51,916 bases of DNA from Flavobacteriales bacterium (GTDB lineage: Bacteria > Bacteroidota > Bacteroidia > Flavobacteriales > Flavobacteriaceae). The notes under the pieces were generated by a model that saw only the letters and a list, made by a program, of their open reading frames with translations, had not been told where the DNA came from and made no database searches. The position numbers were made by a program, and so were the translations under genes. The stretch spans positions 1 to 51,916 of the forward strand of contig SGZB01000004.1 in NCBI GenBank assembly GCA_004321735.1. The letters run 5' to 3'. This document shows positions 26,523 through 29,287 of the stretch, piece after piece (the first letter of the stretch is position 1; every line of letters begins with the position of its first letter).

Positions 26523-26939
26523 ATGACAAAGAATCAAAAGTTGAAAGTTTTTAATAAGGTCAATAAAAACACTCTAATGGATTTTATGGATATTGAATAT
26601 GTTGACATAGGTGATGATTTTTTACTAGCAAAAATGCCTGTAACAAAAAAAGTTTTTCAGCCTGAAAAATTATTGCATGGTGGGGCTTCTGTTGCTCTGG
26701 CTGAGTCTGTAGGTAGTGCAGCTTCGCACATGTATATTAATACATTAACTCATGCTGTTAGAGGAATTGAAATTTCAGCAAATCATCTAAAGGGTGTAAA
26801 AAGTGGATATGTTTTTGCAAGAGCAATCCCATTGCATATCGGAAGAACAACCCACTTATGGGAAATTAAAATTACTGATGAATCTGACAACCTAATTTCA
26901 CATTGTAAACTCACTAATATTATAATTGAAAAAAAATAA
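26523..26939 (+). CDS. Hotdog-fold acyl-CoA thioesterase, MenI-like
   Basis: This is a 138-residue PaaI/YdiI-type thioesterase. It matches the 1,4-dihydroxy-2-naphthoyl-CoA hydrolase MenI closely by eye: LLHGGASVALAESVGS (catalytic Glu61), GIEISANHLKG and PLHIGRTTHLWEIKI. MenI frees dihydroxynaphthoate for prenylation in menaquinone synthesis. The neighbour at 26991 is a MenA-like prenyltransferase, which supports that role, but substrate breadth in this family is large. The start is ATG 26523 after the dnaK terminator; longer in-frame starts would run through the terminator. Confidence 0.8.
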   Translation: MTKNQKLKVFNKVNKNTLMDFMDIEYVDIGDDFLLAKMPVTKKVFQPEKLLHGGASVALAESVGSAASHMYINTLTHAVRGIEISANHLKGVKSGYVFARAIPLHIGRTTHLWEIKITDESDNLISHCKLTNIIIEKK

Positions 26940-26967: not shown

Positions 26968-26975
26968 TAGATTTG
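26968..26975 (+). promoter_or_regulatory. -7 box for the PAS-UbiA operon
   Basis: TAGATTTG is a full match to TAnnTTTG and lies 15 bases before the ATG at 26991, giving a leader of roughly 8-11 bases. It is preceded by a short run GGTT; no TTG is seen at the expected -33 position. Confidence 0.5.
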
Positions 26976-26990
26976 CATAAATTTTTTATT

Positions 26991-28355
26991 ATGAAAAGTG
27001 TAATTACATGTGATATGGAGGGTGTAATTGAAACAATTAACCCTGAGGGAGAAAAACTTTTTGGATACTCTAAAAAAGAATTAGTTGGAAAAAAGAGAGT
27101 TTCGTTATTTTCCGCAGGTGAAATTGTAATACAAAATGTTGGGAATTGGTTAGCTCAGGCGAATAAAAAAGGTTCATATACTACTAAAACCTATTTTATA
27201 AACAAGAATGGAAGTAAGTTTAATGCTGAAATTAAAATCACGCCTACATTTGCTAATGGAAAAAATAACCCACAAACTGGATATTGTGGGATTACTGTTC
27301 CAATAGAGGAGGAGGTTAAAATTCCAATTAAATTTTCAACAATTTTCATAAAATGGGCTTTTGCCATTACTAGAGGAGGTTTTACAAGCGCTTCACTTTT
27401 TCCAATTTTTGCTTTAGCAGCTTACTTTGCTGGATCTGGTGACTCTTTGTTTAGTATTACATCATTAATCCTATGTTGTACAGGTATCGTTTTTTTACAT
27501 GTATCATCAAATCTTTTTAACGATTACTATGATGTAAAAGATGGTACTGACGGCGCAAATACAGAATACTTTAATGCTGGATTGAATTCTACAGTTCTGG
27601 AGGGTGCTCAGCTTTCAGGTGGGAGTAGAGCAATTGAACTTGGTCTTATTTCTCTTGATGGTACATTATCACTTGCCAGAAAAATGTTAGTTTTTACAGT
27701 ATTTACAACCTTTGGTTTAGTTTACAATAGCTACTTAGTCACAGGTAGTTTTGATAATTCAGTAAATATGCTATTGATAGCAATAATTGGTGGTTTGCTA
27801 GGATATTTTTATACTGCAAGACCAATTAGATTAGTTGCAAGAAGAGGCTTAGGTGAGTTAGCAATTTTTCTAACATTTGGGCCACTTCTAACATTGGGTG
27901 CACTATTCGCAATTTCATCGAATACTGTTGAGTTATTCTCACCTGAATTTTATAAAGCAATTTATATCGGAATTCCTTTTGGTTTTTTGACTACAAATAT
28001 TCTTTACATAAATCAATTTCCTGATACAAATAGTGATGCTAAAACAGGTAAAAATCACCTGATAGTAACATTTGGAAAGAAAAATGCAAGATGGGGTTAT
28101 CTATTAATTTTAATAGCTTCATTTGCATCTTCTCTTGCACTAATTCAAACTATTTCAAGTGATCTTTCATTTTTTAATGAGTACTTTTTTATTGTTGGTA
28201 ATATTATTTTATTTGTTTATGGTTTATCCGCATTTTTTAATTTATTTAAAAACTATGATAAGAGAGTGTTAGTTCACTCAAATTTAAAGACCATATATCT
28301 TCAGATATTCTATGGATTATTTATTGTTCTAGCCCTGAATTTATTTTTTATATAA
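26991..28355 (+). CDS. PAS domain fused to UbiA-family (MenA-like) prenyltransferase
   Basis: This 454-residue protein joins two modules. Residues 1-105 look like a PAS sensor: GVIETINPEGEKLFGYSKKE, then FINKNGSKFNAEIKITP. Residues 115-454 are a UbiA-type membrane prenyltransferase with about nine helices and both Asp-rich motifs, NDYYDVKDGTD (177-187) and NQFPDTNSDAKTGK (341-354), plus the MenA-like GLGELAIFLTFGP. MenA prenylates dihydroxynaphthoate in menaquinone synthesis. The start is ATG 26991; a TTG at 26973 falls inside the -7 box. A MenI-like gene lies just upstream and the CPBP ATG overlaps its stop (TAATG). A PAS sensor on a quinone-pathway enzyme is unusual. Family membership is clear; the exact aromatic acceptor is inferred. 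Confidence 0.8.
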   Translation: MKSVITCDMEGVIETINPEGEKLFGYSKKELVGKKRVSLFSAGEIVIQNVGNWLAQANKKGSYTTKTYFINKNGSKFNAEIKITPTFANGKNNPQTGYCGITVPIEEEVKIPIKFSTIFIKWAFAITRGGFTSASLFPIFALAAYFAGSGDSLFSITSLILCCTGIVFLHVSSNLFNDYYDVKDGTDGANTEYFNAGLNSTVLEGAQLSGGSRAIELGLISLDGTLSLARKMLVFTVFTTFGLVYNSYLVTGSFDNSVNMLLIAIIGGLLGYFYTARPIRLVARRGLGELAIFLTFGPLLTLGALFAISSNTVELFSPEFYKAIYIGIPFGFLTTNILYINQFPDTNSDAKTGKNHLIVTFGKKNARWGYLLILIASFASSLALIQTISSDLSFFNEYFFIVGNIILFVYGLSAFFNLFKNYDKRVLVHSNLKTIYLQIFYGLFIVLALNLFFI

Positions 28356-29287
28356 TGTTTATAACTCAAGCCCTCAATTTTAAAACTGATTGGTGGAGAT
28401 ACCTATTAGGTTTCTTCATAATTTTTATCTTCTGGCAGTTTATTGGTGCTATTCCGCTAGTTGTAGCTATGATTGCAAATTTAGATTTTAGTAATCTTGA
28501 AAGTATTGAAAATGCAAACGAATTACTATCAAATATTGGAAGTAAAAATTTGGTTCTTTTTCTTTTAATGCTAGGTTTTCTTTTTGGTTTTATTGGTCTA
28601 TATTTTGTAGTAAAAAATCTTCATCAACAAGACTTTAAATCAATAATTACATCTCGAGAAACGGTTGATTACAGAAGAATTTTACACTCTTTTTTAATTA
28701 TATTTGTTGTAAATACTTCAATGATATTTATTTCTTATGCTATTTCACCTGAATCGTTTGAGTATAATTTTAAATTAGAACCTTTCTTAATTTTACTATC
28801 AATATGTATTTTTCTTTTGCCTATTCAAACAACTTTTGAAGAACTCCTAACAAGAGGTTATTTATTACAAGGATTTGGCATTGCTTTGAAAAGTAAAGCA
28901 GCTGCATTTATATTCCCATCCTTAATCTTTGGCTTATTGCATATTTTTAATCCTGAGATTAATAAATTGGGCTATGGTTTTCTTGCTGCATATATTTTGA
29001 TGGGTATGACTTGGGGAATTTTTACGATAATGGATGATGGTAATGAATTATCAATTGGTGCTCATTATGCAAATAATTTAGTTGTTTTTTTGTTTGTAAC
29101 TGCTGACTGGCATGCTATTCAATCCGATGCGGTATTTATATCTGTTGAGGAGCCCACTATAACAAGTATGCTAATTCCTGCTTTAATATACTATCCAGTT
29201 TTAATTTATTATTTTTCAAAAAAATATAAATGGAATAATTGGTCAGAAAAACTTTTTGGAAAAATTAATATTGAGGATGAGTCTTAA
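28355..29287 (+). CDS. CPBP-family intramembrane protease (Rce1/Abi-like)
   Basis: This is a 310-residue protein with about eight membrane helices and the three CPBP motifs: EE(162-163)LLTR, FGLLH(196) and AHYANN (about residue 240). These glutamate/histidine residues form the active site in Rce1-type CAAX proteases. Bacterial members have varied or unknown substrates, some acting as bacteriocin immunity proteins. Its start codon overlaps the stop of the prenyltransferase gene, so the two are translationally coupled. Confidence 0.85.
   Translation: MFITQALNFKTDWWRYLLGFFIIFIFWQFIGAIPLVVAMIANLDFSNLESIENANELLSNIGSKNLVLFLLMLGFLFGFIGLYFVVKNLHQQDFKSIITSRETVDYRRILHSFLIIFVVNTSMIFISYAISPESFEYNFKLEPFLILLSICIFLLPIQTTFEELLTRGYLLQGFGIALKSKAAAFIFPSLIFGLLHIFNPEINKLGYGFLAAYILMGMTWGIFTIMDDGNELSIGAHYANNLVVFLFVTADWHAIQSDAVFISVEEPTITSMLIPALIYYPVLIYYFSKKYKWNNWSEKLFGKINIEDES

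Follow-up and report, generated by a model that had tools for sequence, protein, structure and literature searches.

The window, a stretch of 51,916 nucleotides from a Flavobacteriales bacterium, encodes one real fused protein in which a PAS domain is joined to a complete, nine-helix UbiA prenyltransferase of the MenA type. Beyond a sensor placed on a known enzyme, this is a deeply conserved sensor-enzyme unit, carried by genomes that mostly lack a known source of the quinone ring. The fusion itself, both folds, the co-inheritance and conservation of the two parts, and the presence or absence of quinone genes at the cut-offs given below are observed. We give nearly an even chance to the proposal that this PAS-MenA joins a polyprenyl chain to a DHNA-like ring of scavenged or undescribed source, and that its PAS is gated by redox state or a ligand, replacing feedback on MenD. 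If a sensor is indeed built into the tail-adding enzyme, control would be exerted directly at the membrane step. A literature search limited to open-licence PMC articles found no paper that is, by its title, about a PAS-UbiA fusion. The features discussed are the following:

26526..26939, + strand: thioesterase of hotdog (4HBT) type, similar to MenI/DHNA-CoA hydrolase, 51 bp upstream of the fusion (PF03061, 54.1 bits)
26991..28355, + strand: PAS-UbiA (MenA-like) fusion gene, from the ATG at 26991 to the TAA ending at 28355; 454 aa, uninterrupted frame
26991..27305, + strand: PAS domain, residues 1-105 (PAS_9 above its gathering score, structure model, PDB fold matches)
27009..27011, + strand: codon of the invariant Cys7, in the first PAS strand, residues 3-8 (alignment and DSSP of the model)
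27285..27287, + strand: codon of the invariant Cys99, in the last PAS strand, residues 95-104 (alignment and DSSP of the model)
27333..27368, + strand: linker/amphipathic helix, residues 115-126, leading from the PAS to TM1 (DSSP of the AlphaFold model)
27375..28337, + strand: UbiA prenyltransferase domain with nine TM helices, residues 129-449 (PF01040, MenA models, fold match)
27519..27551, + strand: Asp motif I, NDYYDVKDGTD (MenA-type DxxDxxxxxD), residues 177-187 (alignment)
27552..27626, + strand: fusion-specific active-site loop, residues 188-212 (alignment; pLDDT <50 at 188-210)
28011..28037, + strand: Asp motif II, NxxxDxxxD, residues 341-349 (alignment)
28355..29287, + strand: CPBP/Rce1-like membrane protease, its start overlapping the fusion stop by one base (PF02517, 47.4 bits)

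An alternative TTG start at 26973, upstream of the ATG, would add six residues to the fusion. The protein is recognized by the Pfam family PAS_9 over residues 4-92 (E 3.2e-8, 34.2 bits vs. a cut-off of 27), by the NCBIfam model sensory_box (36 bits vs. 22.9) and by Pfam UbiA (66.8 bits vs. 34.2); PAS_9 is also found at E ≤0.001 in 25 of the 25 PAS parts of the orthologue alignment. The AlphaFold model of the full-length fusion, obtained with 33 orthologues (pLDDT 82.7, pTM 0.80), displays a PAS topology at residues 3-104, the amphipathic helix 115-126 and nine TM helices between 129 and 449, with an uncertain loop at 188-210 (pLDDT <50), and the PAS part modelled alone reaches a pLDDT of 90.1. 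A PAS fold has a sheet of five strands, with helices inserted between the second and the third, and DSSP shows this arrangement in both models. The nearest PDB fold of the PAS part (Foldseek) is 3lyx (TMq 0.83), with no ligand known here; the FAD-PAS of NifL (TMq 0.79-0.81), Aer, DOS and many LOV domains also appear among the matches, while the UbiA part resembles an archaeal UbiA homologue (4od4, TMt 0.74) and UBIAD1 (8djk, TMt 0.68). The original prediction of a PAS domain at about residues 1-105 fused to a complete UbiA is thus borne out by Pfam, AlphaFold and PDB folds, and the structure prediction that had been proposed as a means of refuting it returned the PAS fold.

The two Asp-rich motifs claimed for the UbiA part were confirmed, and their key residues do not vary across 34 orthologues (N177, D178, D181, G185, T186 and D187 of motif I; N341, D345 and D349 of motif II). 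This alignment comprises 29 of the 49 contig loci described below, four sequences from relatives' genomes and the window protein. Residues 111-130 contain three K/R and no D/E, and the loop charges indicate that the N-terminus shares a membrane face with the two Asp motifs, probably the cytosolic one by the positive-inside rule. This shared face makes it physically plausible that the PAS acts on the active site.

The fusion is old, and it is not a product of assembly. When the window protein was compared with genome contigs, 49 loci were recovered, 47 of them matching at least residues 2-439 and the other two cut by contig ends; the records are titled Flavobacteriales, Saprospirales, Kapaibacterium and Ignavibacteria, among others. 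An assembly or frame artefact is ruled out by these 47 fused loci from separate records together with the models: homologues in which the two parts were always separate genes would have pointed to such an error, and near-full-length fused orthologues were found instead under all four of these record titles. Two record titles seem mislabelled, namely L082 (titled Bradyrhizobiaceae), whose genome has its ubiE in the same place as G345, and L065 (titled Gammaproteobacteria), with 72% identity to, and the neighbours of, the window's lineage. In a plasmid collection, the search returned one weak match, a haloarchaeal MenA.

Within the genus, the fusion occurs in 21 of the 22 other genomes, the exception (G011) being 56% complete. 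Among 119 relatives it is found in 26, the window's genome included, and outside the genus in G076, G089, G100 (family f6) and G112 (family f11). No fusion match falls below 445 bits, and the best of the rest, of canonical type, has 42.6 bits, so that no PAS-free close relative was seen among the 119 relatives. A profile of the PAS alone, run on 395 genomes of the phylum at E ≤1e-12, gave 13 matches, 12 of them in fusion frames (164-194 bits overall; the window and 11 other phylum genomes, the latter at 164-180 bits) and the 13th in a 1346-aa frame (50.5 bits). UbiA adjoins the PAS in all 11 other genomes; in G229 it is reduced to a stub where the contig ends, the gene being apparently split between contigs. 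This PAS type was therefore seen solely with UbiA at the 1e-12 threshold. In a 42-row tree, a single branch separates the 25 UbiA parts of fusions from the remaining rows (support 81/87; recovered in 76% of 200 bootstrap trees); they adjoin canonical MenA and stand away from the rows of heme O synthase. The tree contains three long rows, L110, L163 and L176, L163 being an outgroup row admitted through a weak 40-bit match. With this moderate support, the fusion probably had a single origin.

The two parts have also been inherited together. Their pairwise distances correlate with r 0.87 (equally high values in 0 of 2000 permutations), and the PAS has diverged more than the UbiA part in just 2 of 300 orthologue pairs. 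Over the same 25 orthologues, mean column identity is 75% in the PAS and 58% in the UbiA part, and invariant positions across the 34 orthologues, masked letters ignored, amount to 29/105 and 58/345, respectively. Such strong conservation of the PAS fits a structural or catalytic role as well as a sensory one. The only invariant cysteines of the whole fusion lie in the PAS: Cys7 is present in 34/34 orthologues and Cys99 in 33/34, the remaining row having a masked X. Tryptophan is represented among its invariant residues once (W53).

With regard to the chemistry of the UbiA part, the description as MenA-like holds as similarity, on the basis of models and motif I, short of proven identity. MenA models match 25/25 UbiA parts, and those for chlorophyll synthase 15 to 24 of the 25, with weaker best values. 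With the invariant D178, D181 and D187, motif I has the MenA form DxxDxxxxxD given in PMC9235831. On the other hand, the window protein stays below the equivalog cut-offs, with 75 bits vs. the 225 of TIGR02235 and 56.3 vs. the 102.15 of TIGR00751, and the fusions at most 135.6 bits vs. the 264 of NF004751. MqnP models were absent among the matches of the window protein and of the 25 UbiA parts, the general ubiA_other model matched one of the 25, and that for homogentisate prenyltransferase one, weakly. Canonical MenA (NF004751, TIGR00751, TIGR02235) and the fusion share the UbiA fold, nine TM helices and motifs I and II, but the N-terminal PAS is an extra of the latter. They also differ in the loop after motif I, which reads GGSRAIELG in the fusion and GPxRALQSG in three canonical MenA rows of the same family; GGSR is common to all 34 orthologues. 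The closest solved sequence relative is UBIAD1 (E 1.6e-12; 8djk/8djm), the human menaquinone-4 synthase; it has no PAS and shows 21% identity to the fusion over the fold alignment. By sequence, the enzyme part is thus MenA-like and its chemistry a prediction. An 11-residue insert in the same loop, AGLNSTVLEGA (residues 196-206; window 27576-27608), is present in 10 of the 34 orthologues, those of the window's genus and its nearest lineages, and absent from 24.

Light had been listed among the possible signals of the PAS, and in its LOV form this idea did not survive. LOV domains, the light-sensing PAS, carry their flavin-reactive cysteine in the helical segment that follows strand 2, and PAS domains that bind heme in the manner of FixL or DOS have a conserved proximal histidine. 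Here, the only PAS columns with cysteine in at least 8 of 25 rows are 7 and 99, and no column has histidine in as many; by these motif rules, both a LOV domain and a FixL/DOS-type heme PAS were discarded. Cys7 and Cys99 are located in the first and last strands, which are adjacent in PAS sheets. Passages of PMC11620690 and PMC8174306 describe how ArcB and EvgS sense the redox state of quinones through PAS cysteines, and the fusion likewise has a probably cytosolic PAS with two cysteines on a membrane protein. Moreover, Cys99 precedes a glycine of the last strand, as does EvgS Cys683 according to a primer given in PMC8174306, translated by eye; in contrast to the fusion, the PAS domains of ArcB and EvgS drive histidine kinases, and the second EvgS cysteine lies elsewhere. 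This register is a lead, by analogy, for redox control of the fusion. The FAD-PAS domains of NifL and Aer are among the nearest solved folds (TMq 0.75-0.81), yet they show 18-22% identity. Control of the prenyltransferase by redox state or a ligand through the PAS is regarded as plausible.

The quinone genes accompanying the fusion were surveyed in 26 fusion genomes: that of the window, 10 others of the genus, four others of the order and 11 of the phylum. Eleven of the 26 are 99-100% complete; the 11 of the genus are 59-87% complete (77.7% for the window's), so single gene absences are weak there. MenD above its cut-off was found in 0/26, vs. 3/3 controls of the same family; 17 of the fusion genomes had no match to its profile, and nine had only matches of 56-67 bits, probably other thiamine-diphosphate enzymes. 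Among the 119 relatives, MenD at E 1e-30 occurs in 76 (74 above the cut-off), all of them belonging to the 93 in which no fusion was detected; MenD is lacking in another 17 of these 93 as well. A Fisher test on these relatives gives p 3.5e-15 with kinship ignored, so that it should count as the evidence of a few independent lineages. MenB, searched in the fusion genomes, was above its cut-off in 0/26, matches of enoyl-CoA-hydratase type reaching up to 165 bits vs. a cut-off of 342.7. Concerning the futalosine route, MqnA and MqnD are both strong only in G112 (227 and 112 bits). Single homologues occur in G213 (100 bits) and G353 (70 bits), three f39 genomes have matches of 28-36 bits and two more have matches below the cut-off; the 11 genomes of the genus, f6 and the other four f39 genomes yielded no MqnA/D (PF02621) homologue. 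The fusion had been presented as probably the enzyme that attaches the prenyl tail of menaquinone, and an assignment to menaquinone synthesis is not supported as it stood, with MenD and MenB in 0/26 genomes and MqnA/D strong in one of 26 and single in two.

The step after prenylation is, by contrast with these ring genes, kept: MenG/UbiE is above its cut-off in 27 of 29 distinct fusion genomes (29 of 31 entries, G507 and G508 repeating G491 and G345), and was not found in the window's genome (G000) or G100, both incomplete. A prenyltransferase and MenG retained without ring genes probably constitute a “tail plus methyl” half-pathway. In 19 of the 26 genomes the fusion is the only NF004751 match at E 1e-5 (11 of the genus, the four others of the order and four of the 11 of the phylum), these four phylum genomes still having one or two further UbiA proteins. 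A second MenA match at the same threshold accompanies the fusion in six of the 26. G213 and G353 have lower-scoring extra MenA-like genes, and G112 has additional UbiA proteins besides its futalosine genes. Four f39 genomes, G144 (L193), G203:C10, G221 (L194) and G491:C138, carry a canonical menA (280-317 bits) adjoining ubiE, with no MenD or MenB above cut-off and MqnA/D weak or not found. Where the genome also holds a canonical menA or other UbiA or futalosine genes, the fusion may do something else; in G112 and the f39 genomes with both enzymes it could make a second prenylated product or be a regulated second copy. A search of the full UbiA family in 33 entries (G513 repeating G353) recovered the fusion, either alone or accompanied by one protein with heme-O-synthase-like scores, in the 11 genus genomes, G076, G089, G506 and G509, and more UbiA proteins in the remaining entries, save G100, whose third match is below the cut-off. 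The fusion is hence the sole quinone-type prenyltransferase found in the 11 genus genomes; in the window's, the one genome where this assignment was checked, the other UbiA protein is a heme O synthase (TIGR01473, 265.7 vs. 210.3 bits). The suggested look for a second, PAS-free menA accordingly gave none in the window's genome, of which the assembled part is 77.7% complete.

From these observations we infer substrate, product, and the direction and nature of control. The enzyme part would most likely couple polyprenyl diphosphate with a ring resembling 1,4-dihydroxynaphthoate, after which MenG/UbiE would methylate the prenylated product to a menaquinone-type quinone. With MenD and MenB absent, and the futalosine genes mostly so, the ring would be scavenged or made by an undescribed route. 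PMC9835592 and PMC12421875 describe DHNA feedback on MenD in other bacteria, and the restraint of DHNA synthesis at MenD and MenF. Such feedback cannot operate without MenD, and the PAS may be a replacement control point filling this gap: it would gate the prenyltransferase through the linker helix adjoining TM1, the signal being most likely the redox state, via the Cys7/Cys99 pair, and/or a bound ligand (a flavin, or a quinone or naphthoate).

Some alternatives leave the sensor in doubt and others the ring. The PAS could be an obligatory part of the enzyme, binding or handing over the aromatic ring or a cofactor, or holding a dimer together. The rarity of pairs in which it is the more diverged part (2/300), the lack of PAS-free close relatives among the 119 and the absence of the classic heme and LOV motifs would all agree with this; we nonetheless judge it unlikely, given that canonical MenA is usually a bare UbiA (frames mostly of 295-360 aa among the matches listed) and that the near PAS folds of known role include the redox or oxygen sensors NifL, Aer and DOS and many LOV domains. 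We consider it improbable that the fusion is an ordinary MenA whose PAS is decorative, in genomes with MenD and MenB too diverged for the models: the genomes of the genus fall short of completeness, divergent members may escape equivalog cut-offs, and the MenB-model matches of enoyl-CoA-hydratase type do reach 165 of 342.7 bits, but MenD gives no match in 17/26 and 56-67 bits in 9/26 while 74/119 relatives pass its cut-off, and 11 of the 26 fusion genomes are 99-100% complete. We hold it very improbable that the fusion belongs to a benzoquinone route of the plastoquinone or tocopherol type, with homogentisate as its prenyl acceptor. As this route would have it, HPPD exceeds its cut-off in G505, G506, G510 and G511 and in the fusion genomes of f6, f11 and f39. 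It does so, however, in none of the 11 genomes of the genus and not in G509, G213 or G353, where the fusion is nevertheless conserved, nor in the fusion-free control G024, and the homogentisate prenyltransferase model matches one of 25 members, weakly. Homogentisate as a general head group was discarded because no HPPD was found in the genus.

Quinone salvage, by which the host would import DHNA or a naphthoquinone from its neighbours and add only the tail and the methyl group, is possible though doubtful. The retention of a MenA-like enzyme and MenG without MenD or MenB speaks for it, and group B streptococcus, with its partial MenA-MenG pathway, is a parallel. Within Bacteroidota, passages of PMC12502741 describe Porphyromonas gingivalis, in which the menaquinone pathway is incomplete in around a third of the genomes and growth is stimulated by DHNA; these strains share the phylum and the incomplete pathway with the fusion genomes, and those passages contain no mention of a PAS fusion. 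Some fusion genomes, however, are 99-100% complete and 2.2-3.3 Mb in size, not obviously host-dependent, and others are, by their record names, open-ocean MAGs and single cells, for which a supply of DHNA seems doubtful. Going further than the gated PAS-MenA preferred above, the fusion might mark an undescribed quinone route of Bacteroidota, with the ring made without MenD, MenB or futalosine and a redox-gated PAS-MenA as the committed, self-regulated step; this we consider unlikely, though not negligible. An undescribed pathway to the quinone ring has been suspected in Gloeobacter (Chobert and co-workers, PMC13386864). The fusion offers a handle on one group of the kind discussed in their work: it points to definable bacteria that keep the last two menaquinone steps without MenD or MenB, namely complete Kapabacteria-like genomes and small-genome marine Flavobacteriales. 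The Kapabacteria-like label of f39 is based on record titles and on the agreement in coordinates of G251 and G229 with L073 (titled Kapaibacterium) and L080 (titled Ignavibacteria), respectively.

The surroundings of the fusion were compared in 29 loci. The protease lies downstream in 9/9 close loci and the thioesterase beside the fusion in 7/9; the latter scores 107.4 bits against NF047425, under the 185-bit cut-off. The other 20 loci have unrelated neighbours, neither protease nor thioesterase. No ring-making gene was recognized beside the fusion or, in 12 stretches, beside ubiE, the neighbours being mostly judged by eye. Also by eye, in L081:2539-5922 (Flavobacteriales) the fusion follows a heme-uptake-like ABC set (binding protein, permease and ATPase) and a HugZ/HutZ-like protein, all on the same strand. 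In L071, L073, L076, L077 and L078, from records titled Kapabacteria or Ignavibacteria and related ones, the fusion is found, judged in the same way, near purH-, folC- and rpsA-like genes, a conserved though metabolically unrelated place.
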